A stretch of 64,000 nt of DNA from Symbiodinium sp. CCMP2592 (lineage: Eukaryota; Sar; Dinophyceae; Suessiales; Symbiodiniaceae): positions 2,159,894-2,223,893 of the forward strand of contig CAJNDT010000001.1 in assembly GCA_905221615.1 (NCBI GenBank), given 5' to 3'. The notes below the pieces were generated by a model, which ran no database searches, was not told the origin of the DNA, and worked only from the letters and a program-made list of their open reading frames with translations. Position numbers and translations under genes: made by a program. Shown here piece by piece: positions 3,001 to 23,395 of this stretch (positions within the stretch are counted from its first letter, which is position 1; each line of letters opens with the position of its first letter).

Positions 3001-5234
3001 TTTATGCACCAGCAACGTCAGCCATCACCACCAAGCTTTTGCCGTGGCTGTATTGCGAGCTCAGCCGGCGAGCCAGAGAGTCTCCTGATGAGACCGACCG
3101 CATAGGAGTGATCCCGCTTGATGTGCGTGACGCTTTTCTTAACGTCCCTCAGGAGCGTCCCATGCTGGCCAAGATCCCTGGGTTTGCAAGCCGAATGCGG
3201 TTTCTCAAGATGCTCCCTGGACAGCGGGACGGGACAGCCCGATGGCATCAATTCATCATGAACTACATCCGCGAGGAGCACAAGCTCACAAGCTGTGCTG
3301 AGTGCCCATCGGTGTATAAGATCGTTGATCCCAAGGGCCGTGTAAACCCCGGGTTGATACATGTAGATGACTTGTGCCTGGTTGGGTTTGTCCAGTGGCT
3401 TCTTAAAGAGCTAGTCCCAAGCTTTGAGAAAACCTTTGAAGTGTCCTACGAGGTAGCCTGCATGCCTGGAGACAGCTTCAAGTTTCTTAAAAGAGAGCAC
3501 ATAATTCTTGATGATGGGATCTTGATAAAGCCACTTGCGGACCATGCTGTGAATATGGCAAACCTTCTTGATGTGCCGTTGCATCGGAAGTTCCCTACGC
3601 CGTGTACCAAGGAGCTTCTCATGCCGGATGGAAGCAAGGAGCTGGACTCTGCTCGAGCAGCCAAGTACCGCAGCGCCGTTGGGATAGGCATGTATGTGTC
3701 ACATGATCGGAGTGACATTGCTTTCACGGTGAGGGTGTTAGCCCAGAACCTTAAAGCACCGACCGAGCGCGGCTGGCAGTTTGCGCAACGCCTTGCAGGG
3801 TATCTTGTTGGAACGGCCGGCTACGCAAGCAAGGTGCATGCCAAGGGCGATCGAGCAAGCATTCTTGAGCCACCTGATGCCGAGGAGTGTCTTGATGGCG
3901 TTCGGCTAGAGGTGTTCTGTGATGCAGACTGGAGCGGCAACAAGCAGACTCGCCGGTCGATGAGCAGCAGCTCGTTCTTTTTGAACAGCTGCTGCGTCTA
4001 TACTTCCTGTAAGAGCCAACGGTGCGTAAGCCTCAGTAGTTCGGAAAGCGAATTTTACGCCCTGGTGTCCGCGGCGTGCGACGGCATCTACCTGAAAAGG
4101 GTTCTTGAATACCTGCTTGAACTACCGGTAGATCTTCTGATGAGGACTGATAACAGCTCCTGTCGCCAGATATCTTTGAAGCAGGGTGTATCAAAGATCA
4201 GGCATCTTGATGGAAGGTTTCTCTGGATACAGGAGAAGACAGCCGATCGCACACTCCGCGTGCAGCCGGTCGATGGGAGGAGGAACCCATCGGATCTGGG
4301 AACCAAGGTGCCGTGCTCAGGATCCCGCCTACGTGCTTTGTTGTGCATGCATGACTTTGTGTACTGTGCGGGTGACTGCATAGAGGAGGTAGGCCGTGCA
4401 GAGCATGATGCGTTGTTGGAGCAGTTGCAGCGTGAGCGTGAAACACAGAGGGTTCGCAGACTTGTGTGTAAGACGCTAAAGAGCAACGGGATGCAGAGCT
4501 TCAACGCTGCAATGATGGTGATGATGCTATCGCTTGTGCAAGGTGCCGAGAGCAGTGGTACCAGGCGTGAGGTCGGTGTGCAGACCGATGATGATGCACG
4601 GTGGGCGCAGTCGCTGGCCGTCTTGGTGATTTGCACATGTGCTATCCTTCTTGCCTTGAAATCTTTGAGCCTTGGGCGGCTATGGACCACAGAGGGCAAT
4701 GAAGATGACATCACCTTGAACGTGAGCAGTGCCAGCACTTCCACCGAAGAAGTGTACGAGCAGGAAACCGGTTGGTGGAATTGGGTTCCATTGACTTTCA
4801 CCTGCAGCCTTTCAGCGTTCTGCCTGGCAATCATGATGTGCCTGCGACGGGTGCGAGCCGCACTGCATGCCGCTGAGCAGGAGAACGAGCGCTTGAGCAG
4901 ATTGATCGCTGAAATGAACTACGACCGTATCGCTTGGGGAGAATACCACGAGGCGAAAGATCGAACAAGAGAGAGAACGCTGCCAACGCCAGAGCCGAAC
5001 CGTGCTATCTTCATAGATGGCGATGCCGCACGGGGTTCCAACGATGTGATCCAGCATGTGCCTGAGTTGCATGTTTATTGCACTTTGAGACGAGGCAAGT
5101 CGTACCACAAAAGCAGGAATTGCACTTGTCTTAACAATGCTGATGAGATCGTGAAGCTTGGAATCGCCACAGCCCGTGAGCGAGGTTACAAGCCGTGCGG
5201 AAGTTGCTTTGGTGGCAGCAAGAAACAAAAGTGA
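3..5234 (+). CDS. Copia-type Pol polyprotein with membrane and zinc-ligand C-terminal tail (5'-partial)
   Basis: Numbering starts at the GTG at 18, which is not a real start, as the frame is open upstream. A retropepsin box ILDSGAD has its catalytic Asp at residue 22. A SAP-like segment lies at about 333-370 (GLSQSGSK at 347-354). The integrase zinc motif is H405-x3-H409-x6-C416-x2-C419, and the integrase core carries D446, D514 and E554. A Pro-rich linker precedes RT, with LDVRDAF (D1035) and HVDDL (1115-1119). RNase H has CDADW (D1302, D1304), SSSESEF and a TDNSS box. After RNase H come two hydrophobic segments (about 1529-1552 and 1589-1611), a coiled-coil-like stretch, and a Cys/His cluster (C1688, H1697, C1702, C1704, C1727, C1730) ending GYKPCGSC. 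Family assignment is firm; the roles of the SAP-like and C-terminal parts are inference. The protein would be processed by its own protease and carry out reverse transcription and integration. Confidence 0.9.
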   Translation, partial: GIPQFVCAVHSIDMLVHDSEAHEIILDSGADMSCLPLCYATHGTSQGAGGLALKDAQGEPLAVNDLREVDFVLQSEEGEPIVWREVCAIAPVTQPLLCKGKLMRAGWWPQRRPTMCLEHDSGIRVPMSFKGNSLCIKAAIYRVGEQSVNPALHVRFVQATIDASMIDAPFGWQMSEQGDMFFRGRGSHFIDPSIVAPVGWPCRTTLVKPCRDGYDHWLLLEHCVSWGELQELSAVLPHGECDVVCVLTTDRTPLEDMMIVPSRSVKDYISWSGPQPADPNAGELDEYEPSDDGMAEAFEPAEVSVSPLPDVEVADAPMPERKSERDVLVYDGVELSLASTLNVIRASCKAAGLSQSGSKQRCLDRLKCYLEKQDIALKSEVAQAVEGDSTRVAKGQAMNKEPSKAERDLHNLTHWPFQGWCDHCLSMRGLEDRHQSIPDSPDRDTPIVSFDFCYTSVTTDDSDLQHHKLTILVAHDTATGSVFGLPVASKGKDDLKFAAIELTRFVQSLGHNTIALQTDNEPSTVALQNLIIGVRTRLNFKTVVRNAAVESHASKGYVEKTVDLLRGLSNVFLDQARAKFGLGPDDLGPSHPLMAWSYVHAAFILNRFAVRGGATAFERATGFRYSGKLGMYAEPVWGYRKGKHKGDRRWHRALMLTKSPSNDMYVLCNSAGVWLTKSIRRNDKPWESEQSLAIDAKGFPWDYQLGLLGTKVVPQARHRVPKPADKGEPDAPQGEVQVEAPRMPDMPAMAGIPPAPVPAESVQPPSVAAGTPAPSSRATLLLDRSDRAPTSVVEPAAAPAPLESPMEVAASDPPSPEGGTPVIPMTDDDLLIDVAKRAQDAIDLQPSGQASKYQRIARVGAEELPINDEVLESAPEWEDAERYLEVSDEAAAEWDVTNTEDSHALDNEECLWYDSIPDLSEQQQEELDRIADSFEVQRLLRKGVLEEIGDEVDTSDHKELSSKFVRTWRKKLHKDKMMYFRRSRLVAREYRWLERDREDLYAPATSAITTKLLPWLYCELSRRARESPDETDRIGVIPLDVRDAFLNVPQERPMLAKIPGFASRMRFLKMLPGQRDGTARWHQFIMNYIREEHKLTSCAECPSVYKIVDPKGRVNPGLIHVDDLCLVGFVQWLLKELVPSFEKTFEVSYEVACMPGDSFKFLKREHIILDDGILIKPLADHAVNMANLLDVPLHRKFPTPCTKELLMPDGSKELDSARAAKYRSAVGIGMYVSHDRSDIAFTVRVLAQNLKAPTERGWQFAQRLAGYLVGTAGYASKVHAKGDRASILEPPDAEECLDGVRLEVFCDADWSGNKQTRRSMSSSSFFLNSCCVYTSCKSQRCVSLSSSESEFYALVSAACDGIYLKRVLEYLLELPVDLLMRTDNSSCRQISLKQGVSKIRHLDGRFLWIQEKTADRTLRVQPVDGRRNPSDLGTKVPCSGSRLRALLCMHDFVYCAGDCIEEVGRAEHDALLEQLQRERETQRVRRLVCKTLKSNGMQSFNAAMMVMMLSLVQGAESSGTRREVGVQTDDDARWAQSLAVLVICTCAILLALKSLSLGRLWTTEGNEDDITLNVSSASTSTEEVYEQETGWWNWVPLTFTCSLSAFCLAIMMCLRRVRAALHAAEQENERLSRLIAEMNYDRIAWGEYHEAKDRTRERTLPTPEPNRAIFIDGDAARGSNDVIQHVPELHVYCTLRRGKSYHKSRNCTCLNNADEIVKLGIATARERGYKPCGSCFGGSKKQK

Positions 5235-8826: not shown

Positions 8827-9080
8827 CAGGCGATCGTTCCATAATGACGTTGTCTTCAGCATGAGTACCCGTGTGGGCCATGGCGCGGCTCCAGAGGAGA
8901 CAACCTGCAAACTGAAACAGAGTGGCGGAGGAAGGAGGAAACAGATGAACAGACTATAGCGAGTAGACCGAGAGGAATTAGAGCGTTTGATGCTTGCAAG
9001 TCATTATGTTTCACGAGTGCACGGGACCAAAGACGCCCGCAAAGCGCAGAGCACGTTCGTGCAGCGTTCAATGGAAATAG

Positions 9081-9095
9081 CAGTAGTTGTAGTAA

Positions 9096-9150
<55 letters not shown>

Positions 9151-9193
9151 TGTCGGAGGAGTAGTAGTAGTAGTAATAGTAGTAGTAGTAGTC

Positions 9194-9258
<65 letters not shown>

Positions 9259-9262
9259 CGTA

Positions 9263-9348
<86 letters not shown>

Positions 9349-9379
9349 ATAGTAGTAGTAGTAGTAGTAGTAGTAGTAG

Positions 9380-9431
<52 letters not shown>
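9081..9431. repeat. GTA/TAC trinucleotide microsatellite, about 350 bp
   Basis: An almost continuous (GTA)n run, interrupted by a few changes such as TGTCGGAG near 9151 and single-base slips near 9260, 9350 and 9380. It creates long artificial frames of poly-Val (+) and poly-Leu, poly-Tyr or poly-Thr (-) that should not be annotated as proteins. Confidence 0.97.
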
Positions 9432-9433
<2 letters not shown>

Positions 9434-11791
9434 GGGCCTTGGTTCCATTTTCAGCCATTGCGTGACCCAAGAAAGTGGAACCCAGAATTTCGGGAAGTGG
9501 GGCAGGTCGACATACGTCGACGAGTCTCTCCACTGCCGATGGCCTTGGACTTTGGACTTGTAGAATTTTTGGCGTGCACGATCGGGACATAACAGAACCT
9601 CGGGGCCGACCGTTGTTCAACGGAACGGCGGCTGGAGCCTTGACTTGGGCTTCACTGACGGTCTTGGGCAACTTTGGGCAACGGCCCTCTGTTGTCGTGG
9701 AACGATCGCTGAGGACCCGTAGCAAGTGCTGAACGGCCAACCCAGGCAAGGCTTGGGCACAGCCAGCTCCGCCCTCTCTAATTAAGTATCCTGTTTCACC
9801 GCTGTTTTTGTTGGTTTGATCGTTTGTTCGTTTGTAGAGACCGAGTGCTACAGCCGTAGTCGACGAGGCCGCATAAGCCCAAAAAACGATTGTTGCCAGC
9901 CTTCTCCTCTTGATTCGACTTCCACAGAATGGTTGGTCGACAAATTGCCTGGTGTAAGGAAAGTGAGAATCTTCAGTAAAAAAAGAAAGGAAAAGCTGTT
10001 GGATCTTTTTGTGTCTGAAAAGTCGTCTGGTGAAATACCGTTCCAAACATGACATCATTGCTCAGGATTTGATGCAATTTTGTGGAAAGGTTGTTTTTGT
10101 CAACTTGATGGAGCACATGAAAAACAAATCAAAGCTTCCTGCGCTTATGGATGTGTACAGGTGGTTTTGGCCGCTTCATTTTCCTTTTTGACTTTTCTGC
10201 CCGACGTGCCGCTTCAGCATCCACAAACAAGAGCACTGCGTTTTGTCCATGGCATTGTACTAGTTACTAGTAGATGTTGCAGCAATGTTGCATGTGCAGG
10301 TTTGAAGTTGGAAATCTTTTTGGCAACATCCTTGAATGCCTAGTGTCCCATCACAATTGAATCCTGAACATTTGAGTATGGAAGAGGAATGTCACACTGT
10401 GAAGCAGAAGCTCCACATTTGATATGATGTGAGTTTCCCGCATGAAGCAGTGCCTCTTGAGAAATTTTCGCAACCATTTCCTTGGTCTTGTTGGCTCAAG
10501 CGTTTGCAAGCCGGCTTGCGTTTCAAATGGTCGTGCCAGAAATGTTTCGATATTTACATGTCATGTCAGATTGACCATGGTTTGGGTTCGAGTTTGGTGT
10601 ATTCAACTGTTGCAGAAACTCCGAGCAGTAGTTTTTTCAAATTTCGTGAGCAGTAGTTGCTGCAAATGAAGTTGCACTGCCAAAACAGTTGTCATCAGTC
10701 ATGTCAAACATCATGAAATGGTGCTTGTGGACGTAGTCATGTAGCGATGATGGCATGGCAACGATGGTGTTGTTCAGCGGGGAGGCTAGATGTGTGCTTG
10801 GGAGCAGGTTTCCAACATGCCCGAAGGCAACTTGCTGACAGGTGTAGTTAAGTTCTCCGAGTGATCACGGTAATGCGATGGAGTTTTTCTGGTGCTGCTG
10901 CCTGTAGGAGCCCCCTCCGGCAGCTGCGAAACCCGAGACCGCACGCTTGGTCGAAGGCAATTCCATTGAAGTTCAGCTGAATCGTAAGGCATGGTACGCA
11001 TGATGCATGTCATGCATGTGCCCTTTGCAGTCTTGTTGTATGTACAATAGTGAGGCAGAACTCATGCTGCTTGGTAAAGCTTTTGTTGCCGTTCGTGGAA
11101 GCCGAGGAAGTTGTGGGATGGAGGATGCTTGACAACAGCCAGCCAAGGCCTCAGCCCAAAGGCAACCGGCACGGTGCGAAAAAGTTTTTCTGTTGGAATT
11201 CTGTGTCGACGTCCTGCAGTGCCTTTGATCTGAAGGAGATGGCAGTATGTCTTTGTTTTCCCAATGGACTTCAAGAGTGACTACTGGTCCTCTCCAGCTT
11301 CTGAGCCCAATGAAGCGTGGGACAGGACAGAAGCGGTGCGCTGTGATCCCCAACTCTGTCATGTGGGTTGAAACTCCCGGGCAGGATCTTTACCCGCTTG
11401 GATGGAACTGCGAAGATGACCTTCTCAACAGGAACTACAAACAGACAGTTTCATCAAGCCGCTTCTTGGTCGCGCTTGCAAAGTCAGACATTGCTTGAGT
11501 AGCAGCAGTCGTTAGCAGTCAGTTACAGCGAACGAAAGTGGACACTTGTACCTCGACGAGGTATTAGATGAGCTCGCCCGTGCCTCCGCATTCCTTCGTG
11601 CCTGTGATGCTTGTAGCTGACACCGTGTGCAAAGAACATGTTCGACATGAAGATGACCGAGGTCAAAATTCTGACCGGGCCATGGTGCGGCTTCGAAGTT
11701 GGCAAGTACAGGTGCGGCATAGCAGCTAATGGCAAGTCAGTTGTCGCATGTCTCGCCTGGACCTGCTCGCCGACAATGTCTTTGCATGTAA
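9432..11791. other. Unassigned sequence between microsatellite and exon-like frame
   Basis: No recognised domain was found. A small + frame at 10009-10191 (containing FCGKVVFVNLMEHMKN) has protein-like composition and could be an exon, but has no known match. TTGGCTCAAG at 10491-10500 resembles the end of the spliced leader but is too short to rely on. The rest looks like intergenic or intronic DNA. Confidence 0.4.
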
Positions 11792-12049: not shown

Positions 12050-13982
12050 AAGATCATATGAAGCACGGCTAGCTCTTGTTCATTGGCTTTCGTGCAACTG
12101 GCTAGTCCGCTACTGGACAACTTGTAACTATCTCGAACAGGCAAGGGCAGTTGTCGAAAGCCGTTGTAGAGAATTTTCAATGCAAGACATCAAGTGCTTT
12201 TCTTCTTGCCACAACGTTTTGTGACCATTGTGTTGGCGACAGGCCATCAAAGCCATTGCCGAGAAGGAGGAGTTTCCTGCATCTGGGCAGCATTTGGGCC
12301 CACGACACAGCGCGTGTATTTGAATCAAGCTTCCGGAGGCCATGCTCCGCCATGATGTCGTTTACAAAGATCTGACTTGTGCGACAGACGAGTCGACAGG
12401 CATGTGGTGCAATCTGTCTTCGTGACTGTGACTCAATGACACCTCAACGTAACAGCAATTCGTCATGGACGAACCTGTAGAGGTTGCTGTTCAGGTTCGT
12501 CAAGGGACAGTAGTGCCCTAGTAGGAGCTGGTGGAAAGGTGGCTGGCCAAGTTCTTTTCCCTCGTATCAGGCGACCATAATTTTGATCTTAAGCCTCGTC
12601 GGTTGCATATCAGTCATGTTTGGTTCCATGCCTGAGGGTCTTACACGCAGGGCCAGACATGAGCACGGCAAGTCAACAACCAGGAAGGTTCCTGTAGCTG
12701 CTGGTAGGGTGGGGTTCCACTTGCACTTCTTTCTGACAGCCCTGTATTGCTCACAGCACACATTTCACGGAACCCCTCTCCAAGTACATTCCTAGTGCAC
12801 AAACATCTATGAATAGAGTGATTGTGTCTCATGCTACAGCAGCATGCTTTTTTGAGTCGCGGCCAGGCCGAGATAGATTCCGGGTCCGTGACTTCGGTGA
12901 GCCTTGGCAGAAAAGCCGAGATGCGGAGCTGCAAATGCGAGGATCCAGTCAGAGTTTCTGTAGCTGTGAAAGACCTACCTTTCAACTCAAGGAGTTCCTC
13001 GATGGCAAGAGGCATACAAACAGATATCCTGGTCATGCCACTTGTCAGATACCCTCTGGAGGAAAAGCAGAGCAACATTGGCCCGCTCTCAGCCTGTTGC
13101 TATAGGTTAGATATACTGCCGAAGTGGACGAGGTCTGTGAGGCGCTCGAGGGTGTGAGAAGGGGGAAAGCGTATGCTGCGTGAGCGAGAAACAGTCGTTC
13201 AGCAGGACTTCTATACGGCTGATCATATACGCCTTGCGCGGCATCGCATCCGCAGATTCGTGCGCTTGCAATCGCTGGTCTCGGTGCCTAGTACGATTTG
13301 GTCGGAGCAGCAGATGCCAGTGTTCCACTCTGGCACTTTCCGGGTTTCGCTTTGCTGGTGTGAGGAAGGCGTGGTGAACCAGTACTTCTGTGTCCATCAG
13401 TGGACAGACTTGCAATTCTTCTATGAGGTGCAGCGCTGGAATGAGTCTTTTCAGCAACGCGAATCGCGCCGCGGACAGATGCCTCATTTGCTATAATGAA
13501 TGTGTCTTGCATGAACCGAATGTCAAGGATCCTTGCAACCTCCTGCAATGGCCGGCAGAGCACCTCCCTGACAGCACCTGTGATCATCACTGTCACTATA
13601 AGTCCACAAATGAAGGCTGTCCACGCAGAACCGAAAGTGCAGGCAGCAGGTGTTGCTTTCGCGTTTCAGCACGTGCAGAAGAGGTGTGACAACGGCAGCT
13701 AAGGTATTCAGCAGTACTTCGGAGCAGACCTGTCATTCTTTTTTCATTGGTTCAACGCCTACACGTCGCGCAGCTGCAGTATGTTCAGTTTCCATGAGCT
13801 GACCCAGCCTTTTAGCAGGTTTGCCCGTGGCAATGCTTGGTGTTCGACCTTTCAACCTGCCTGAGGCGGTTTCTGTTCTGGCCTGCTCTGCTGTCCACGC
13901 CGATCCTGGCTCAGGATTTCTTTTTCAAAGAGCATCTTGGATACAGGTTGGTACTCGTAGCGAGCCGGTTTGCTTGTGCTTG
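12050..13982. other. Unassigned sequence upstream of element 2
   Basis: Both strands carry open frames over 13107-13496 (+ frame of 107 codons from ATG 13173, minus frame of 126 codons). Neither has a known motif and the strand cannot be decided. No RNA gene or repeat was seen. This is the left flank into which element 2 inserted. Confidence 0.4.
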
Positions 13983-13987
13983 AAGCA
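13983..13987. other. Target-site duplication, left copy (AAGCA)
   Basis: AAGCA precedes the 5' LTR and recurs at 23391-23395 immediately after the 3' LTR. The match extends to TGAAGCA (13981-13987 and 23389-23395) if the terminal TG of the LTR is counted as target, so the exact boundary has a two-base ambiguity. Five bases is the usual copia length. Confidence 0.85.
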
Positions 13988-14207
13988 GTTGAAGAATTGC
14001 GTACAACCTCCATGTAAAGTAATGTTACCTGACTGTGCAACTTCTGTGACATGGTTAATGCCAACTTCTTTTGGCTCAAGATGAAAAGAGGCGCACTGAG
14101 TCGTGTTTCTTCGTTCAGGGCCGGGGTTCCTTTTGGGGTTTCCCTTCCCTTTCCTTCTTGTTCCTACCCTAACATAGTGGCTTCTGTGTTTGGGGTCGGA
14201 ATAACTG
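13988..14207 (+). repeat. 5' LTR of element 2
   Basis: 220 bp, GTTGAAG...ATAACTG, identical to 23171-23390 at all but two positions (G14083 vs T23266, T14106 vs C23289). The LTR lacks the usual TG...CA ends; with GTT...AAC as termini the last two bases would belong to the primer-binding site. It must hold the promoter and polyadenylation signals, but no TATA box is obvious, as is usual in dinoflagellates. Confidence 0.95.
14069..14080 (+). other. Spliced-leader relic inside the 5' LTR (TTTTGGCTCAAG)
   Basis: The 12 bases equal the 3' end of the 22-nt dinoflagellate spliced leader (DinoSL), which is trans-spliced onto nuclear mRNAs. The same 12 bases lie at 23252-23263 in the 3' LTR. Just upstream is GCCA, another leader piece, separated by five bases. 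In dinoflagellates, leader remnants mark DNA that passed through a trans-spliced mRNA and was reverse-transcribed. A chance match is possible but unlikely at this length. Confidence 0.65.
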
Positions 14208-14215
14208 GTTATCAG
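14206..14215 (+). promoter_or_regulatory. Primer-binding site candidate
   Basis: TGGTTATCAG starts at the last two bases of the 5' LTR. It begins with TGG, complementary to the CCA end of a tRNA, and resembles the initiator-Met type site TGGTATCAGAG of many copia elements with one extra T. The priming tRNA cannot be verified from the window. Confidence 0.55.
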
Positions 14216-14274
14216 CCGTAGTGTTCGTTCTTCCCTTTAGGTTTGGTGAAGTCCTTCAGCGCGTAGGTCGCTCC

Positions 14275-15611
14275 ATGGATGCACCGGACCCAGATCGTGG
14301 CCCAGAGATCCTTCCGAGGCCACGTGGGATCCGAGCTGGGAAAAGTGCGGTACGTAAGTGTAAAGCGTACCAGCAGTACCAGTTGAATCTTCAACCATTC
14401 CGATATACTTCCTTAGACGACGTGCCAGTCCGTCACCAAGACGGCAGTCAGCGGCCGCTTTATACAAAGCCGGGTTGGCGACCCATCTTTGAATTCGACA
14501 GCGAGCCCGAGGAAGAATTGGTTGAGGTTGAGGTAGAAGCAGAGGAGCCGCCACTCATTCCAAAGGCGTCAGGGGCAGTGCCGGGATATCACAGGATCCG
14601 CACGCCACCTGCTCCTCCTGCGCCGCCTGTGCGGCCGTCGTCTTCGTCATCGGCGAGTTCAGTGGCGAAAGCACCTTCTCAGGGTCCGTCGGCGAAAGCA
14701 TCTCTTCCAGTGCCTTCCGTTACAGCTTCAGTTTCTGGACAACGGTTGGCCCCTACGCCGAAGGTGAGGATTACTCCCGCAGATTCCCGCAGCGAAGACT
14801 GCGGCGGTGCCTAAGGCCTAAGGTGTCTGTTCCGACTCCGCCGGCATTTCCTCCTGATCCCAAGATTACAGCTCCGAAGACTCCTCCCAAGAATCCACCG
14901 AAGCCTCCAGCGTCGAAGCAGAGCCAGGAGAGTCAGGCTGCAGTGATCCCTAAGGTGCCGCCAAAGTCAGCCCTCACTTCAGACCCTATCGTTGACCTAC
15001 CGAGGAGCATCTTGTTGTATTCACCAGACACTTTTAACAGGTGCAACTTCAGAGTCGAAGATAGCCAGCGGCTTGAGGGCAAGGTCATCGTATTTGACTT
15101 TCACAACGTGATTGACCGATATTATTGGGCACCTCGCGTTGGACAGCGGAAGCAGCAGTATAAGATCCCTTACCCGAACGAGGCACCGGAGTTGCTCTCG
15201 GACGTTCAGGGTCTTCTCAGGCGTGTCCACAGAGCTGCAGAGGAGGCGGGAGCATTGGTGGTGATTTGCTCCCACATTTCGGAGGGATCCAGGAGCATCG
15301 AGGATTGGGCCTTGGACACCCTTCGAAACACCTTTATACAATCTGTTGGTCAACGTCAAGCTGATTTAGTCATCATCACTCGATCCCGTACAGGACGCCT
15401 CGGAAAGCTTGACATCTGTCGACGCCTCTTCCAACGGCCATCGTTGTTGATAATAGACGATAACACGGGGATCTGTGAGGAGTGGAACAGATCGGCTAAC
15501 GCTGCTGCGTTTCACATCCAATTGCCTCGGCGGGATCTGCCGTCGATTGGTCGGTCCTTTTCCTCGATTTTCGAGGCGGAACCTTCCATTTTGAATTGGA
15601 TCTCAGGCTGA
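14275..15611 (+). pseudogene. Element 2 ORF1: HAD-phosphatase-like protein with Pro/Ser/Ala-rich N-terminal half (frameshifted)
   Basis: The first ATG after the LTR is at 14275, 35 bases after a pyrimidine-rich TTCTTCCCTTTAG that looks like a splice acceptor. The first half (to 14814) is acidic and Pro/Ser-rich. The frame then shifts twice, near 14780 and 14818, as if two single bases were inserted. The second half (to 15611) carries HAD-superfamily landmarks: motif I VIVFDFHNVID (D92 counted from 14823; the usual second Asp is His94), motif II VVICSH, a Lys-containing LGKLDICRR, and motif IV LLIIDDN (D212, D213). HAD enzymes use the first Asp as nucleophile, so phosphatase activity is possible, though the second Asp (general acid) is missing. 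Its position between LTR and gag suggests a captured host gene. It could also be a nucleic-acid end-processing factor; that is inference. Confidence 0.65.
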
Positions 15612-15712
15612 AGTGCTCAGCGTGTGCATTCGGACTCGGTGTGAAAGGCTGCCTCGCGCCACCACCTTGTCCTGGGCAGTTTGGTTTAAGGTTACTTTCA
15701 GGCTTCAGGGTA

Positions 15713-15793
15713 TATCTGTGTGGTCTGTTAGGCGCATTGCGCCACTGACCGGGGGTATCCGTGTGGTCTGATCGGCGCATTGCGCCACTGACC
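15713..15793 (+). repeat. 38-bp tandem repeat with palindromic core upstream of gag
   Basis: Two 38-bp units (15713-15750 and 15756-15793), separated by GGGGG, share the core GGCGCATTGCGCC, a 13-base hairpin-forming palindrome. They lie in the 211-bp gap between ORF1 and the gag ATG at 15823. A role in translation re-initiation, packaging or dimerisation of element RNA is possible but is inference only. Confidence 0.8.
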
Positions 15794-15822
15794 TGCCTTC
15801 CTGCTAGCGCACTTCCGTCATC

Positions 15823-17549
15823 ATGTCGCAATCTCAATCAACCCCAACTGATCCAAGCTCCTTGCTTGACATCTCCAGTGCTTCAGCAGCTGCGGTTCCG
15901 GGTATGAGGGATTCCTCTTGTGCTTCGGGTGGTTCAGAGAGTAGCTCAGCCTTAGTTGAACGCGAACGCTCACCTCCTGCCAACCGAAGAGCTTTAGCCC
16001 GGACTCCCAGGAAAGCTTCAGCTCCTTACCCAGCTGTCAATGTTCCTTTCGATGAGTCTGGTGTTCCTACTGTTGTTCACAACCAGATGCTCAACATAGG
16101 AGCAACGCCTCAGCAAGTCCTTGCTGCTCAGCAATTTGCTGCTGGTGAAGCTGCCAATCGAGTCGCCGCTCAGGCGGAGCTGCTACACCAGGCCTCTATC
16201 AGTGAGGTACAAGGCCAAGTCAGGGACGTGTTGACAGAAGCAGGGTCTGCTGTTGATCAGCTTCGGGAACAGCTTACAGTAAGCTTTCGGAGATTAGATG
16301 TGGGGAATTGTTTGAGTACGGTCAATATGTTGAACGTCATCTTGCGGAGGCAAAGGCGGAGTTGAATATGTTGAATTTTCAGCTAAATCAAGTCCGAGTC
16401 GAGTGCCAGATCAAGGAGAGAGAGATTCAGAGGCTTCGGTCGGCTGCTCCATGCGCCTCGACCTCCGGATCTCCTCCTAAGCCACCAAAACCCCATGCTC
16501 CGCTAGTCGGTTCTGGGTCTGGTGTTAGTGAAGCGTCATGGACTCACCTTGAAGCTTCCGAACCTCCCACTCAGAATCTGCTGTACTCGGGTACCTTTGC
16601 TCCTCCGCCCGCACCATCATGTCCTGCTCCTTCTCAACCTACGTCGCCTGTAACAGACCCCCGCGTGGATCAGCTGATTGAGGTGGTTCAACAGTTGGTC
16701 CAACAGGTCGGTCAAAATGCTACGGGTACTGTTGAGACCAATGAAGATGATGAGGTTGAAGATCAAGAGGCTGTCAAAGAGCTTCGGGAAAAGGACATTG
16801 TTGATCAAAGGGCTCTCTTGCATCTTAAGCTTGAACCTGTTCCTTCAGATGCGGCAAGTTTCCGAACTTGGAAGAACGGTTTCAAAGTTCAGTTGTCCAA
16901 GCTTGACACTTCGGGTCAAGGTCTCGTGTTGGCTTGGGTTTCTAGAGGCTTTGATGCTGAGAGAGCTGACTTGCAAGATTCAGAGCTCCTTCCTCGTCTT
17001 GATGCATGGATAGCTGGTGAGCTGTCGTCAGGGCGTGTGCTGACGCAATCATCTGAGCTTGAACAAGACATCACTGCTTACATTGAAAGATGTAGTCAGC
17101 TTGGCCAATCACCCAAGGGTCGAGTGATGTTGTCTATCATCGCAAGGCATTACGACCTCGATCGGGTAAGAGGTTCTGTTCTGACTGCATCAACGTTGTT
17201 TCAAATCGAGCTTGGTGGAAGTTCCATAAAGGACTTGAGAGACTTTGTGAATCGTATTCGCCTCGTTCTCAGTGCAATTCCGGTCGGGCAACGGCCTGAT
17301 GATCGCCTCACCGGTGAATGGCTCTTCCATCGAGTGAAACACGTTCGCAAGCTTGAGCGCGTTATTGAGGACATCAGGGAATCTGGGGCAACTTCGTATA
17401 GGCGTGAGTGGTCTTACTTGTGGGATAAGATTCAGGATCTGATCGTGCAGGACCGTGAGGATTCCAACGCGCAGTCTGTGTTGAAGTCTCTGCAATCTGC
17501 CTGCTCCGAAAACGAAGGCTGTTCCTGCTGTAGATGGAGGGAATGGTAA
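15823..17549 (+). pseudogene. Element 2 Gag (frame-broken)
   Basis: ATG 15823 opens a Ser/Ala-rich N-terminus and a coiled-coil-like stretch (GEAANRVAAQAELLHQ). This frame ends at 16365. The protein sense continues in another frame from about 16300 (LFEYGQYVERHLAEAKAEL) to 17549, covering the capsid-like core with FRTWKNGF, DLRDFVNRIR and WLFHRVKHVRKLE. The sense then returns to the first frame around 17485-17510 and runs through a Pro/Lys/Ala linker into the Pol frame. The two shifts compensate, so the ancestor was probably one Gag-Pol frame from 15823 to 22914. They could be a one-base loss and a one-base gain, assembly errors, or, for the second, a programmed +1 shift in the 60-base overlap. 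Gag would package the element RNA. Confidence 0.75.
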
Positions 17550-20500
17550 GCCGAAAGCTCCACCACCTGCTGCACCTCCTAAAGGTGCTCCGCCCAAAGC
17601 AGATTCTCCTCCTCCAATTGCACCTGGCGCCCCAGCGCCCAATGCAAATGCGAAAGCCAAATCAAAGGCTAAGGCTAAGGCGAAAGCTATGACTGATGCT
17701 GAGAGAGCCAAGACACCTTGCATTCTCTTCCAGATGCCGTCGGGTTGCATTCATGGAGATAACTGTAAGTTTAGTCACAAAGCTGCTCCGCCGAAGTCGA
17801 AAGCCAAAGCCAAAGATGGAGCCAAGAGCAAACCTGGAGCAGTAGCCAAAGCTGTTGTCGCGCTTGTTGCTGCCTCTAGCTTATGTACTCCTGTTATCTC
17901 TGCTGGTCCGTCCTATGCTGTTGAATGGGCCGCTGACACTGCTGCTGGTCGTCACTTAGGTTCGGCCAAAGCTTTGTTTGACCAAGGGATTCCGCGTGAC
18001 GCCTTTGATCGGTTCTTAGGTGCGTCTAAGTCTCCCGTGACGTTTCATACCGGCGGTGGTCCCCAACCTGGTGTACAGACCCTTGGTTTCGAGTCTGACA
18101 ACATGGATCTTGCAAATCATTACATGTTAGACAGTTGCCCTTTGGTCAGAAGCACAGGGATTGATGTTGATTCTGGGAAGGCCTTCATCTGGCTGCCCGG
18201 TAGTTTGCCTTTCTTCGTCAGCGAGATTTCGCAACTCGTTGTTCAATGCCCTGAGAAGTACAGACATTATGCAACTCGTGTTGAAGAGAATGTTCCGATT
18301 TTCACCAGTCAGGTGAGGTTTACTCATGGGGCACCAAACCCTGTAAGTGACCTTTCAGGGGGGCTCGAGAGCGAGGGTCCGGCTGCTATCCCAAGCGCCA
18401 TCCAATGCTCAGAGCACCATCCTGCTGAATTACGAGCCCGGCAAATGTTGAGCTCTGGCGGCAACATCAGCTGTCGTGCGGTTCGCAATTTGTTTGGTTT
18501 AGTCGACAAGGAACCTGCTGCTAGAGGTGATCATGGGGAATCGTTCTCAACTGGACTTTATCGGTTGGGCGGAAATCTTGGACTTAGGACTTCAGCCCAC
18601 CGGTTTCCTTTGGTTACCCAAGCTCTCAACAAGTTTGCATGTTCGAAGCTTCCCGGCTTTGGATACACGACCCTTTGTATTTTCAGCAACGTTACGACGG
18701 GTCCTCACAAAGACTTCCACAATGCCAACCTTGATAATGCCGTCATCTCCTTAGGTGGATTCTCAGGAGGAGGCGTATGGGTTGAAGAATCAGGGGGGAC
18801 AACTCCGTGTCCTGGTGATCCTGACAAGCTTGGAAAGGTTCTTAACTTCAAGAACGGGGTCATTCGATTCCGAGCTAAGAGCTGCATCCATGCCACGATG
18901 CCGTGGAAAGGCGATCACGTTGTGGTTGTCTTGTTCTCTGCAAAGCATCCTTCAGAGGTCAAAGGTTCGCACTGTGAAGAGCTCCGTGCTCTGGGCTTCC
19001 CAATCGACTCTTGCGAAGAGCCCCTGCCAGCATATGCTGCTGAGGCTCCCGAGGGTTCGGCTGCTGATGCGCCACCCGAAGGGCCTGGCGCTGATGCATC
19101 TGCGGAAGGCGTAGGTGAAGTTGAACAGGATGATGGAGCAGAGGATAAGGTTCCCGAGAGGATTCGGAAGCTTAGAGATCAGGCAATGTCGCTTGAGCAC
19201 AGGTTGTTTCACTTCCCGAAGAATCCTTTCTGTGATATATGTAATCAAGCTCGCATGCTTTCAAGGCGTGTGCGCGGAAAGCCTCGTGACACCGAGGAAG
19301 AACCAGATCCGTTCGAAGCTTCAGAGTTTGGAGAAGTCATTGCCGCTGATCACATTCACGTGTTTAGATCGCCAGACGACTCCGATGCTCCGGACAAGTC
19401 CTACGTTGTGTTGTGCCTGAGGGACAAGTACACTGGTCTGTTTGCGGCGTACCCTGGGAATGATCGTTCAACCAGCGCCGTTGTGACTGCCCTGAGAAAG
19501 TTTGTTGGACGTAGAATTTGCTCAAAGCCTGTGACCTTAGTGTCTGATGCAGCTGATGAATTCGAAGCCGCAGCGGAAGAAATGGGATGGATCTCTTCGC
19601 CATCCTTGCCTAATCGCTTTCCCCACAACGCTCAACTTGAGCGGGAGATTAGGACCTTCCAAGAAGGCGTGAGATCATGGTTCCTTGAAGCTGGGTTTTC
19701 GATCCGTCCTGAGTTGTGGCCCGCTGCTTGTCGTTACGGTGCCATCGCCTTGAATCTGACGTTGCCTTCACCGCAAGATGAGTCGCTCTGTAGGTGGGAT
19801 TTCAACATTGAGGATTCAGGCAGGGATGAAGTTTGCATCAGAAAGCTGATTCTTGGCCAGCTTGTGTTTTACCGACATAAGCATGAAAGCAAGTTCGGTC
19901 CGAACGCTGCTCCAGGCGTGTTCGCAGGATGGCGATTGGAACCAGGTGGCATCTATCGTTCTGTGACCCTTGTGCTTGACTTAGAAAAGCTTCGTTCCAA
20001 GATTGGTGCTTGGACTGAGCCGATCAGCGTTCCGGAGGCTGAGCTTTATGTTCGGTCCGGTGATCCTGTGTTTCCCCTTCGCAACGCTGCAGAGCATGCA
20101 TTGCTGACGTTTGCTGATGAAGGCGATGTGCCTGCACAAGAACCTCTTCCGATTCCTTTCACGCCGCATGTGTTCACAGAACAGGGCGAGAGGAAGAAGC
20201 TTCGTAGGATTTACATTACGTATGCTAGATTTCGTAAGATAGGTCCCACACCTGGGTGCTATGCTTGCGACAACGACAAAAGCAATCACAATGCTGAGTG
20301 TATTGCAAGGTTTGAGAAGGCATTCGGTCGAGAAGCTAAAGCTCCCGAGACTCCAGTTCCCAAAGATTTCTTGTCGTACGAAGAGCTCCAGCTGCCTAGG
20401 CCTCCTGCCCGTCCCGATGGAGATCATCTCTCCGATTATGAACCGTCTGAAACTGGCCTTGAAGATCCTCTTGCATTACCTGCGATGTTTCGACACCAAA

Positions 20501-22914
20501 AGCCCGGAGCTCTTGTGTTGTTTGAGATCGCGTCCCATTCGCCTTCCAATCTTGCCGACATTGCCAAAGGATCAGGCGTTCAAGTTGTCTCGATATCATG
20601 TGACCGTGTTGATCTGTCTGATCCGGTTGTCATCGATCAGCTCATCAGCCAAGTTTCTGCTGTGCCGGGATGCTGTCTAGTTGGTTCTCTGTTAGGTGAC
20701 GGATGGGGAGCTAGATACTCTGGGTGCGTTCACTGGAAGGCTCAGAGGACTTTGCTGGGTTTTCTTCAGGTTGCGCCAGTCATCGTTTCCAATGGTGGCG
20801 AAGTTTCTCTCGAATGGCCACAAGACTCCACGTGTTGGTTGCTTCCCGAAGTTCAAGCCTTCGAGGATCAATTCAGCCTTCGTAGAGTTTCGTTCAAGGG
20901 CTGTTCTCTAGGTATGGTTTCGACATCAGGAGCTCCTTTTGACGCTCCATGGCAAATCATGTCTTCGAGCAAACGGCTAGTCGAAAACTTCAAACCTTTC
21001 AAATGCACTCACGCCTCACATGTTAAGCATTGCTCATCGAGTACGCTTTGGCCACGGGTAGCCTTCTATCCTGAGGCATTTCACAAAGTGCTGCTCATGT
21101 CTCTATTCCCTTTTGCCGAGGCGTTCCAGACGCCAGCGCTCCCATGCGTTCCTTCCTTGCCACAGTTCCATCGTGAAAAGGATTCTAAACCCAAGGTTCC
21201 TCTTGATGTTCTTATGCATGAGTCAGGGATGAAAGAGGTTAAGCTTCCGGGTTTAGTTCACCGCCTTCTCGATAGAAAAGAATGGTCGGGGCAACCAGGA
21301 GCCTACGAGGCAATAAAGAAAGAGAAAGATGGCCTTGTTGATGTTGGGACGTGGCTTGAAAATGAGATAGTGTCCAAAAAGGATGTTCTTGCGTGGGCTA
21401 CTAGGACTTCTAATGTGATCCACTTCGGAAATTTGATGGTCATTTTATCCGTAAAAGGATCTGAGCTGAGTCCTGATCAGTGGCGTCTCAAGGCAAGAAT
21501 AGTCTTCAGGGGTGATGATATCAGGGACCAATCCGGCATGTCTGCTGTATTTGAAGAGCTGTTTGCATCATCCCCATCTTCACTTGAAGGATTGAACACA
21601 GCGGTTGCTGGTGTGACTACCAGCGACGCAGTACGAGCTTACACACAAGCCAAGCTCAAGACGAAGCACCGCACGTACGTCCTCCTACCTCCAGAGCTAG
21701 TCCCACCCGACAAGAAGCACGTCTTCCAACCATGCGCGCCCCTGCACAAAGCGTTGTATGGGCACCCCGAAAGTTCCGCCTATTGGCAGCAACATCTCCA
21801 TGAGATTCTGGTTAAGCTAGGCGGGGTTGAGTTTCCAAACCTTCCTTCGGTTTATTACTTCAAGTCATTCAAGTCCCTAGGATTAGTCTTGTGCATCTAC
21901 GTAGACGACTTGACTTTGTCTGGACGTCGGTCCCTGCATGACGACTTCTGGCGCTCCCTCTCCAAGGAGGTTGAGCTCGAGCCGTACGCAGCCCTTTCAA
22001 GGGTACTTGGAAGATGCCACAGATTCGTGTGCTGGCAAGAAAAGAAAGCACTAGCACTTGAATCAACGGATTTCGCAAAACAGTGTGTTCAATTGTACGA
22101 GACTGTATGTTCGCTTAAGGTTAAACCTCAGCTTACTCCCCATCTCGACATTAGCACACTACCTGCAGCAGACGACGATTGCCGCGGGCAACTTACCGAA
22201 GTTGCCGCGAAAATCTTAATGAAGGTGTTATGGCTTGCAAGGTTAAGTCGGCCCGACTTGATTGTGGCAGTCACAACGCTTGCTTCGCATGTCTGCAGCT
22301 GGTCCAAGAACGATGACCGTCGAGTTCATCGATTGATCGGTTATATTCTTCATTCAGTCGATTACGCATTGATTTTGTGCATCAGCGATTCTCCTTCGGA
22401 TTTACGGTTGTCCCTCTACTGTGATTCCGACTTCGCCGGCTGCATTGACACGTCCCGATCTACCAGCGGATACGTGTTGGCTATCGAAGGCCCAGGAAGC
22501 TTCGCTTTGTTGTCATGGTCGAGTAAACGTCAAAAGGTCGTATCTCGGTCAAGTACTGAAGCAGAGTTCGTTTCACTAAGTGGAGTTCTGTACAACGATG
22601 CAATTCCCTTACATGAAGTCTGGGAGGCCCTCATCCCCGGGATCTGCTTGCATATCTACGAGGATAATCAGGCTTGCATTGCAATCGTCAGAAAAGGATT
22701 CAGTTCCAAACTCCGCCATTTAGGCAAAACTCACCGTGTGAACGTGTCATCGACTTGTGAATATGTCAATGACAGCTCCAATGTCATTCTGGAGTATATC
22801 CACACGAGTGAGCAGAGAGGTGACCCTCTCACCAAAGCGTTGGCAGTCCAGAAATGGTCTCATGCGCTCGAGCTGTTGACAATGTCAACTTCCATTCTAC
22901 CCTCATATAGCTAA
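17485..22914 (+). CDS. Element 2 Pol polyprotein with CCCH finger and inserted 2OG-oxygenase-like and methyltransferase-like segments
   Basis: Numbered from ATG 17689 (1741 aa; the frame is open from 17485). A CCCH finger C-x8-C-x5-C-x3-H lies at about residues 10-29. The protease box is ADTAAGRHL, with Ala in place of the usual Gly after Asp-Thr. At about 285-435 is a double-stranded beta-helix-like segment with H340-x-D342 (GPHKDFH), GGFSGGGVWVEE and a distal H401 (SCIHATMPW). The integrase has H504-x3-H508-x6-C515-x2-C518 and core D554, D620, E651. A Rossmann-like segment at about 938-1150 runs from GALVLFEIASHS to EVSLEWPQDSTCW. RT has D1313 and YVDDL (1404-1408); RNase H has CDSDFAG (D1579, D1581), RSSTEAEF and EDNQA. 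The copia core is certain; the two inserted enzyme-like segments are inferred from motif pattern and may be inactive. Confidence 0.92.
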   Translation, partial: SLCNLPAPKTKAVPAVDGGNGKPKAPPPAAPPKGAPPKADSPPPIAPGAPAPNANAKAKSKAKAKAKAMTDAERAKTPCILFQMPSGCIHGDNCKFSHKAAPPKSKAKAKDGAKSKPGAVAKAVVALVAASSLCTPVISAGPSYAVEWAADTAAGRHLGSAKALFDQGIPRDAFDRFLGASKSPVTFHTGGGPQPGVQTLGFESDNMDLANHYMLDSCPLVRSTGIDVDSGKAFIWLPGSLPFFVSEISQLVVQCPEKYRHYATRVEENVPIFTSQVRFTHGAPNPVSDLSGGLESEGPAAIPSAIQCSEHHPAELRARQMLSSGGNISCRAVRNLFGLVDKEPAARGDHGESFSTGLYRLGGNLGLRTSAHRFPLVTQALNKFACSKLPGFGYTTLCIFSNVTTGPHKDFHNANLDNAVISLGGFSGGGVWVEESGGTTPCPGDPDKLGKVLNFKNGVIRFRAKSCIHATMPWKGDHVVVVLFSAKHPSEVKGSHCEELRALGFPIDSCEEPLPAYAAEAPEGSAADAPPEGPGADASAEGVGEVEQDDGAEDKVPERIRKLRDQAMSLEHRLFHFPKNPFCDICNQARMLSRRVRGKPRDTEEEPDPFEASEFGEVIAADHIHVFRSPDDSDAPDKSYVVLCLRDKYTGLFAAYPGNDRSTSAVVTALRKFVGRRICSKPVTLVSDAADEFEAAAEEMGWISSPSLPNRFPHNAQLEREIRTFQEGVRSWFLEAGFSIRPELWPAACRYGAIALNLTLPSPQDESLCRWDFNIEDSGRDEVCIRKLILGQLVFYRHKHESKFGPNAAPGVFAGWRLEPGGIYRSVTLVLDLEKLRSKIGAWTEPISVPEAELYVRSGDPVFPLRNAAEHALLTFADEGDVPAQEPLPIPFTPHVFTEQGERKKLRRIYITYARFRKIGPTPGCYACDNDKSNHNAECIARFEKAFGREAKAPETPVPKDFLSYEELQLPRPPARPDGDHLSDYEPSETGLEDPLALPAMFRHQKPGALVLFEIASHSPSNLADIAKGSGVQVVSISCDRVDLSDPVVIDQLISQVSAVPGCCLVGSLLGDGWGARYSGCVHWKAQRTLLGFLQVAPVIVSNGGEVSLEWPQDSTCWLLPEVQAFEDQFSLRRVSFKGCSLGMVSTSGAPFDAPWQIMSSSKRLVENFKPFKCTHASHVKHCSSSTLWPRVAFYPEAFHKVLLMSLFPFAEAFQTPALPCVPSLPQFHREKDSKPKVPLDVLMHESGMKEVKLPGLVHRLLDRKEWSGQPGAYEAIKKEKDGLVDVGTWLENEIVSKKDVLAWATRTSNVIHFGNLMVILSVKGSELSPDQWRLKARIVFRGDDIRDQSGMSAVFEELFASSPSSLEGLNTAVAGVTTSDAVRAYTQAKLKTKHRTYVLLPPELVPPDKKHVFQPCAPLHKALYGHPESSAYWQQHLHEILVKLGGVEFPNLPSVYYFKSFKSLGLVLCIYVDDLTLSGRRSLHDDFWRSLSKEVELEPYAALSRVLGRCHRFVCWQEKKALALESTDFAKQCVQLYETVCSLKVKPQLTPHLDISTLPAADDDCRGQLTEVAAKILMKVLWLARLSRPDLIVAVTTLASHVCSWSKNDDRRVHRLIGYILHSVDYALILCISDSPSDLRLSLYCDSDFAGCIDTSRSTSGYVLAIEGPGSFALLSWSSKRQKVVSRSSTEAEFVSLSGVLYNDAIPLHEVWEALIPGICLHIYEDNQACIAIVRKGFSSKLRHLGKTHRVNVSSTCEYVNDSSNVILEYIHTSEQRGDPLTKALAVQKWSHALELLTMSTSILPSYS

Positions 22915-23160
22915 GCTTGGGTTGGATTGGATGTTAAATCGGGTTATGATGCTGAGCACTTTATGCCCTCGAAGCTAAGCTTCACTTGTCAAGACCTCCT
23001 GGTTGTTTGGCTGCTCCTTGCGCCACATCAGGGTGGTCATGGAATCAACCGTCACTGACCGTGTCGTGACACATCGGTCAAGAAATCAACGGCAGGTTGT
23101 TTTCCCCAGTTCGTTAATTAAATGGATCCATTTGCATTGATGTACAGATTTTCCAAGTCA
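22915..23160 (+). other. 3' untranslated region of element 2
   Basis: Non-coding sequence between the Pol stop and the polypurine tract. No further ORF is seen. It includes a short AT-rich stretch (TTAATTAAATGGATCC, about 23115-23130). Confidence 0.7.
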
Positions 23161-23171
23161 GGAGGGGGGAG
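23161..23171 (+). promoter_or_regulatory. Polypurine tract of element 2
   Basis: GGAGGGGGGAG immediately before the 3' LTR, in the position and composition expected for the RNase H-resistant plus-strand primer. Confidence 0.85.
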
Positions 23172-23390
23172 TTGAAGAATTGCGTACAACCTCCATGTAA
23201 AGTAATGTTACCTGACTGTGCAACTTCTGTGACATGGTTAATGCCAACTTCTTTTGGCTCAAGATTAAAAGAGGCGCACTGAGTCGTGCTTCTTCGTTCA
23301 GGGCCGGGGTTCCTTTTGGGGTTTCCCTTCCCTTTCCTTCTTGTTCCTACCCTAACATAGTGGCTTCTGTGTTTGGGGTCGGAATAACTG
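23171..23390 (+). repeat. 3' LTR of element 2
   Basis: 220 bp, 218 of 220 positions identical to 13988-14207. It contains the same spliced-leader relic at 23252-23263 and is followed by the target-site copy AAGCA. Confidence 0.95.
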
Positions 23391-23395
23391 AAGCA
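23391..23395. other. Target-site duplication, right copy (AAGCA)
   Basis: Matches 13983-13987; see the left copy for the two-base ambiguity. Confidence 0.85.

Follow-up and report, generated by a model that had tools for sequence, protein, structure and literature searches.

A copia retrotransposon lineage of Symbiodinium with three additional modules, among them a putative TET/JBP-like domain within Pol

A 64,000-nucleotide stretch of the genome of Symbiodinium sp. CCMP2592 (hereafter the window) harbors at positions 13988-23389 an LTR retrotransposon with a copia-type reverse transcriptase (RT), which contains an open reading frame preceding gag (ORF1, 14275-15611) and two inserts in pol, one located between protease (PR) and integrase (IN, insert at residues ~246-446) and the other between integrase and RT (residues ~935-1160). 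Judged from sequence comparisons within the host genome and beyond, these three segments are lasting parts of a Symbiodinium copia lineage. For the first of the two inserts, we lean with modest confidence towards a role of this Pol-borne, TET/JBP-like domain in the oxidation of methyl groups of pyrimidines in DNA.

The organization of the element is summarized in the table. The repeats, target-site duplication and polypurine tract that the initial annotation described as enclosing it were all found in place, with a 221-nt direct repeat detected at 99% identity, of which 219 nt constitute the LTR proper, and with the same 6 bp duplicated on both sides. The match of pol to the Pfam family RVT_2 (37.5 bits) exceeds the cut-off of this model (31.6 bits). 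Protease and integrase were recognized solely from motif and position, the latter by its HHCC and D,D,E motifs in the expected place, while Pfam rve gave no match in pol. Instead of the usual protease motif D-S/T-G, the window copy contains ADTAAG. The protease region shares 72-87% identity with five relatives (P0001-P0004 and P0018) and 20% with P0005, and the RNase H region is 76-79% identical in P0003 and P0004 and 68% identical in P0018.

Features of the copia element in the window (positions refer to the window)
Feature	Position	Strand	Evidence or remark
Target-site duplication, left, GAAGCA	13982..13987	.	read from sequence
5' LTR, 219 nt	13988..14206	+	2 differences to 3' LTR
Primer-binding-site-like stretch, directly 3' of 5' LTR	14207..14218	+	position only
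ORF1, N-terminal part, low complexity, frame differs from remainder	14275..14781	+	92% match to relative P0006
ORF1, C-terminal part with HAD-like domain	14817..15611	+	97% match to P0006; 8-row alignment
HAD-like motif I DFH from 15096; Ser, Lys and DD motifs further downstream	ORF1	+	
gag region, split over frames	15823..17549	+	a single ORF of P0004 is matched by 15823-16275 and 16287-17501
pol ORF, 1741 aa from first ATG	17689..22914	+	frame open from 17485
CCCH zinc finger, C-x8-C-x5-C-x3-H, gag-pol junction	17719..17778	+	Pfam zf-CCCH_9, E 5.4e-4, below cut-off
Protease region, ADTAAG motif	17911..18288	+	motif by eye; identity to relatives
2OG-Fe(II)-oxygenase-like (TET/JBP-like) domain, HKDFHN ... 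GGGVW ... HATMPW	18424..19026	+	Pfam and alignments
Integrase region	19189..20358	+	HHCC and D,D,E motifs by eye
Rossmann-like segment	20491..21168	+	alignments, weak model
Copia-type reverse transcriptase (YVDD)	21196..22128	+	RVT_2, E 2.7e-9
RNase H region	22186..22893	+	motifs by eye; identity to relatives
Polypurine tract	23160..23170	+	read from sequence
3' LTR	23171..23389	+	repeat comparison
Target-site duplication, right, GAAGCA	23390..23395	.	read from sequence

The near-identity of its LTRs characterizes the window copy as recent. The youth proposed initially is thus retained, but the copy is not intact, since the match of ORF1 to its 436-aa relative P0006 is spread over two frames and that of gag-pol to the single 2382-aa gag-pol ORF of P0004 is broken into three pieces. 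In addition, the 2OG domain, which has kept the His-x-Asp...His iron triad, contains a His at the 2OG-site position where an Arg is found in 49 of the 52 readable copies. By eye, the RT displays a short in-frame gap and is a few residues shorter than in relatives. Inserted recently, the copy appears to be dead by now in light of its broken frames and the lost Arg, a fate that concerns this one copy and not the lineage.

The abundance of related copies became evident in a search of the 1.098-Gb host genome, where 44 matches to ORF1 define 36 places after the merging of fragments. At 19 of these 36 places, all three modules follow each other in order on the same strand, with the 2OG segment situated 3.2-3.7 kb past ORF1 in 18 of the 19, and at four further places one of the 2OG and Rossmann-like segments is located downstream. 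The 2OG segment itself yielded at least 150 matches (150 scored of 5,090 first-look candidates), and among those listed 42 are close copies or fragments of such, whereas 108 show 34-42% identity in open frames that reach 1394 aa. For the Rossmann-like segment, at least 148 matches were obtained (150 scored of 656 candidates), many of those listed with 24-34% identity in open frames of more than 2,000 aa, and a second query extends to further groups. Relatives are also found in other species: P0018 of S. natans contains both pol inserts, and P0017 of S. microadriaticum combines the Rossmann-like segment with a HAD-like tail. Residues that are conserved among relatives with identities of 24-98% place the three segments beyond chance. 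Taken by itself, the window copy would have been compatible with a chance capture of host genes by one or few copies, or with an artefact of the assembly, an explanation to which we assign next to no probability and which is ruled out by the many genome copies with the same module order and spacing and by the presence of both inserts in S. natans. The element with its three extra modules is thus confirmed as common to many copies, and the concern that the segments might occur in this copy only, with its relatives lacking them, did not hold in the host genome.

All modules are under purifying selection, which in the three additional ones is slightly looser than in PR and RT. Median values of dN/dS, calculated pairwise by NG86 among genome copies, with pairs that are not independent, amount to 0.138 for the HAD-like region (19 pairs, restricted to the eight ORF1 copies of highest similarity), 0.105 for the 2OG domain (30 copies, 420 pairs) and 0.099 for the Rossmann-like segment (30 copies, 404 pairs), compared to 0.058 for PR (26 copies, 311 pairs), 0.090 for IN (28 copies, 366 pairs) and 0.053 for the N-terminal part of RT (28 copies, 362 pairs). 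The slightly elevated ratios relative to PR and RT would fit a scenario where the extra segments serve as structural spacers or catalytically dead domains in the folding and processing of Pol or in the assembly of the particle. The same applies to the loss of the 2OG-site Arg in the window copy and to the Rossmann-like segment, where the window lineage lacks a recognizable catalytic motif. Still, we regard this scenario as improbable, since almost every readable 2OG copy, among them relatives of 32-36% identity, has kept the metal ligands and the Arg, and since the Asp, Ser, Lys and DD of the HAD-like domain are invariant over eight rows down to 24% identity.

The insert between protease and integrase is similar to 2OG oxygenases. 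An alignment of 12 rows with identities to the window of 25-69% contains His101, Asp103, Asn106, His162, Trp167 and Gly169 as invariant positions and Arg171 as a residue that is absent in the window row only. When 60 domain matches at 52 loci are counted without gaps, the conserved residues are found as His in 50/52, Asp in 51/51, Asn in 51/52, distal His in 50/51 and Arg in 49/52 cases. In TET/JBP dioxygenases, the Arg following the distal His serves the binding of 2OG, and the Asn of the TET motif HRDxHN contacts the base, a motif that the HxDxxN of the copia domain presumably resembles. At E<=10, Tet_JBP (PF12851) is the sole Pfam family matched in a set of seven members (4/7, best E 0.002), and among 12 diverse members it is found in four (best E 0.041, window), next to one stray match to another family, while the remaining eight do not match Tet_JBP at this threshold. 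A search of the host genome with PF12851, which takes no account of introns and in which 150 of 155 candidates were scored, located at least four places at E<=1e-3, the best of them at 2.2e-4, and none of 14 control genomes contained a match. The two of the four places that were read both belong to the 2OG family of the window element (E 4.4e-62 and 4.3e-45), and one of these two, L124, matches Tet_JBP at 4.8e-7 and no other Pfam family. Neither these four places nor any other member reaches the curated cut-off of 34.9 bits, with the best score being 29.6 bits (L124) and that of the window 13.6 bits, and we thus term the domain TET/JBP-like instead of assigning it to PF12851.

For the 2OG segment, a search of PHROGs retrieved two stray matches only, and a profile search of solved structures nothing. 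Its AlphaFold2 model is poor (pLDDT 46), and none of the 32 fold matches listed for this model is significant; the top three correspond to a prolyl hydroxylase complex, and seven of the 32 are what we take to be 2OG oxygenases, all with E>=0.66. A remote member of the 2OG family is contained in P0005 (RE1 of Symbiodinium sp. CCMP2592; RVT_2 2.5e-4, below cut-off), whose polyprotein shows a different order of modules and whose 2OG piece, at 26-30% identity, matches no Pfam family. A possible counterpart of the Rossmann-like segment precedes this domain in P0005, and an hhalign comparison (P 0.16) did not confirm it. Collectively, the sequence data support the assignment of the insert as 2OG-oxygenase-like and closest to TET/JBP, with a match that is below threshold yet otherwise unrivalled, and the recurrent Tet_JBP matches and conserved ligands sharpen the initial description of a 2OG-like segment at this place.

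The initial annotation also suggested that the modules could modify DNA or RNA of the element to evade or exploit host chromatin, which for the 2OG domain may reasonably be inferred. In the mechanism we favor, this domain would be made as part of Pol and carried in the particle, where it would oxidize the methyl group of a pyrimidine, either converting thymine to 5-hydroxymethyluracil (5-hmU) or acting on 5-methylcytosine. Its substrate would be the cDNA of the element or the DNA at the integration site, and new copies would consequently resemble the heavily modified DNA of dinoflagellates or resist silencing by virtue of this modification. The ORF1 product would most likely act as an accessory protein with phosphatase fold in the removal or binding of phosphoesters, and the Rossmann-like segment would most likely be a non-catalytic remnant or scaffold in the window lineage.

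Alternatively, the domain could be a genuine Fe(II)/2OG oxygenase that acts on RNA or protein and not on DNA bases, for example by demethylating element RNA or by hydroxylating Gag or chromatin proteins of the host. We consider this as unlikely, though as the most serious of the competing explanations. Element RNA is packaged beside Pol, the start of pol encodes a CCCH finger of a type that often binds RNA, and the non-significant top matches of the poor model are to a prolyl hydroxylase complex, as described above. On the other hand, no model of AlkB or of another 2OG family was found in Pfam at E<=10 in the sets of 7 and 12 members, where HMMER filters discard most weak matches, compared to four Tet_JBP matches in each, and the invariant HxDxxN resembles TET. 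A precedent for an activity on RNA is provided by Gypsy elements of orchids, whose AlkB-type domain was shown to have m6A RNA demethylase activity (Alvarado-Marchena 2022; PMC9289625).

The assignment of ORF1 as HAD-like is supported by its motifs. In an alignment of eight rows, in which the other seven are 24-69% identical to the window, the Asp-Phe-His of motif I, the Ser of motif II, the Gly-Lys of motif III and the Asp-Asp of motif IV are invariant, in line with the HAD signature of a nucleophilic Asp (I), Ser/Thr (II), Lys (III) and DD (IV). The second Asp of motif I (D-x-D), which in phosphatases acts as general acid/base, is absent from ORF1 and replaced by His in all eight rows (D-x-H), and the protein is thus not a standard HAD phosphatase. 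At E<=10, none of Pfam, PHROGs and NCBIfam yielded a HAD model, and only strays of single members were obtained (best E 0.0082, to a phosphofructokinase-type model of NCBIfam). A profile of ORF1 aligns with phage polynucleotide kinase phosphatases (P 0.048), and over the 126 aligned columns the motifs stay in register. Of 200 column shuffles, two score as high and none aligns over 100 columns or more, and the reversed alignment reaches a score of 18.1 compared to 18.7, over 19 columns only. As the score on its own is weak, the argument is based on the register of motifs over the full length. The HAD-like nature initially ascribed to ORF1 is thus upheld by four motifs in register but not by a match to a family model, and motif I deviates.

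A second feature of ORF1 is its apparent exchange between lineages. In eight of the 19 complete places (C2780, C660, C3335, C1391, C4290, C4745, C594 and C3358), ORF1 is only 28-41% identical to that of the window, although three of them (C660, C2780 and C3335) match the 2OG segment of the window at 97-98% identity. In C660, the values are 28% for ORF1 and 98% for the 2OG segment, and at its boundary, the one that was read, similarity to the DNA of the window begins at 15820, adjoining the ATG of gag at 15823. Together these observations suggest that ORF1 behaves as a cassette that is swapped at the start of gag.

The segment between integrase and RT is less well defined. Its alignment contains only four invariant columns over nine rows, and a weak model (pLDDT 49) displays an alternation of beta-strands and alpha-helices over the first ~140 residues. 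No identification was obtained from family libraries, profiles of solved structures or comparisons to methyltransferases, with PF00145, the family of C5 DNA methyltransferases, giving no match at E<=10 and hhalign comparisons to the dcm family resulting in P 0.53 for the segment and P 0.12 over 14 columns for its relative L101. The Pro-Cys of catalytic motif IV in C5 cytosine methyltransferases is missing in the window lineage and present in the related segments L092, L101 and L174. The segment may thus at best be described as Rossmann-like, possibly as a degenerate methyltransferase; of the initial proposal, a conserved segment at this place with a tentative beta-alpha alternation remains.

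Our literature searches found no description of a copia element with such a set of modules, nor of a copia lineage that carries a TET/JBP-like domain within Pol, which the described sequences appear to represent, whereas captured modifying enzymes in retroelements are already known. With known copia elements, the element of the window shares LTRs, the positions of primer-binding site and polypurine tract, the order gag-PR-IN-RT-RH and the copia-type RT; it differs from them by an ORF1 before gag, a TET/JBP-like domain between PR and IN and a Rossmann-like segment between IN and RT. A study on Symbiodinium describes copia as its most abundant superfamily and as devoid of any DNMT domain (De Mendoza 2018; PMC5890265). 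The SymbioLINE-Dnmt and SymbioDIRS-Dnmt3 retroelements covered there are likewise from dinoflagellates and have captured enzymes that modify nucleic acids and evolve under purifying selection, but as LINE and DIRS elements that carry cytosine methyltransferases they differ from a copia element with an oxygenase-like domain (PMC5890265). The orchid Ty3/Gypsy elements resemble the window element as LTR retrotransposons with a captured 2OG dioxygenase, which in their case is AlkB-type (PF13532) and encoded in a separate ORF and not inside Pol; this work reports its unusual domains from Gypsy elements, in contrast to Copia (PMC9289625). TET/JBP-type dioxygenases in mobile elements, proposed to counter host silencing by methylation, are described from fungi, where they are reported in DNA transposons and none in retrotransposons, in contrast to the dinoflagellate copia retrotransposon described here (Kojima 2025; PMC12730594).

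In dinoflagellate DNA, 5-hmU is reported to account for up to 70% of thymidine (PMC6723414), and in Breviolum most repeats, apart from some LINEs, are reported to be enriched in this base (PMC11071213). A TET/JBP-like domain under purifying selection inside the Pol of copia elements from a group rich in 5-hmU would thus offer a direct, testable candidate link between base modification and the mobile elements that abound in these genomes, and would represent a novel means by which retrotransposons deal with modified host DNA. It is a rather remote prospect that the copia domains are themselves the thymine hydroxylases that write 5-hmU in dinoflagellates, or share descent with these enzymes. If this were the case, abundant copia elements would carry, and perhaps have supplied, the chemistry by which a large part of host thymine is replaced. 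Both PF12851 places that were read, of the four at E<=1e-3, belong to this retroelement family, and an enzyme encoded by the host would have escaped this search only if it were split by introns or too divergent for a match. The HAD-like ORF1 with its invariant D-x-H, apparently exchanged as a cassette, would constitute a second unexplained protein family borne by these elements.

Several further observations concern the element and its surroundings. The CCCH finger at the gag-pol junction, where a CCHC knuckle is usual, is also present in P0001-P0004 and P0018, and a hydrophobic, membrane-like stretch directly preceding the protease (17839-17901) is kept in relatives as judged by eye. The primer-binding stretch does not seem to match the 3' end of the initiator Met tRNA, and by eye we take it to resemble a match to an anticodon arm, as in half-tRNA priming. 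Between ORF1 and gag, a 43-nt stretch is duplicated in tandem with 88% identity (15708-15793). Elsewhere in the window, a second copia-like pol ORF is located on the + strand at 3-5234, which the pol of P0004 matches at 26% and in which, as judged by eye, RNase H is followed by a long C-terminal extension that includes two hydrophobic stretches and ends in a piece containing Cys. A long ORF on the - strand (8856-10061) consists mostly of simple triplet repeats encoding poly-Thr and poly-Leu and looks like a microsatellite rather than a gene.
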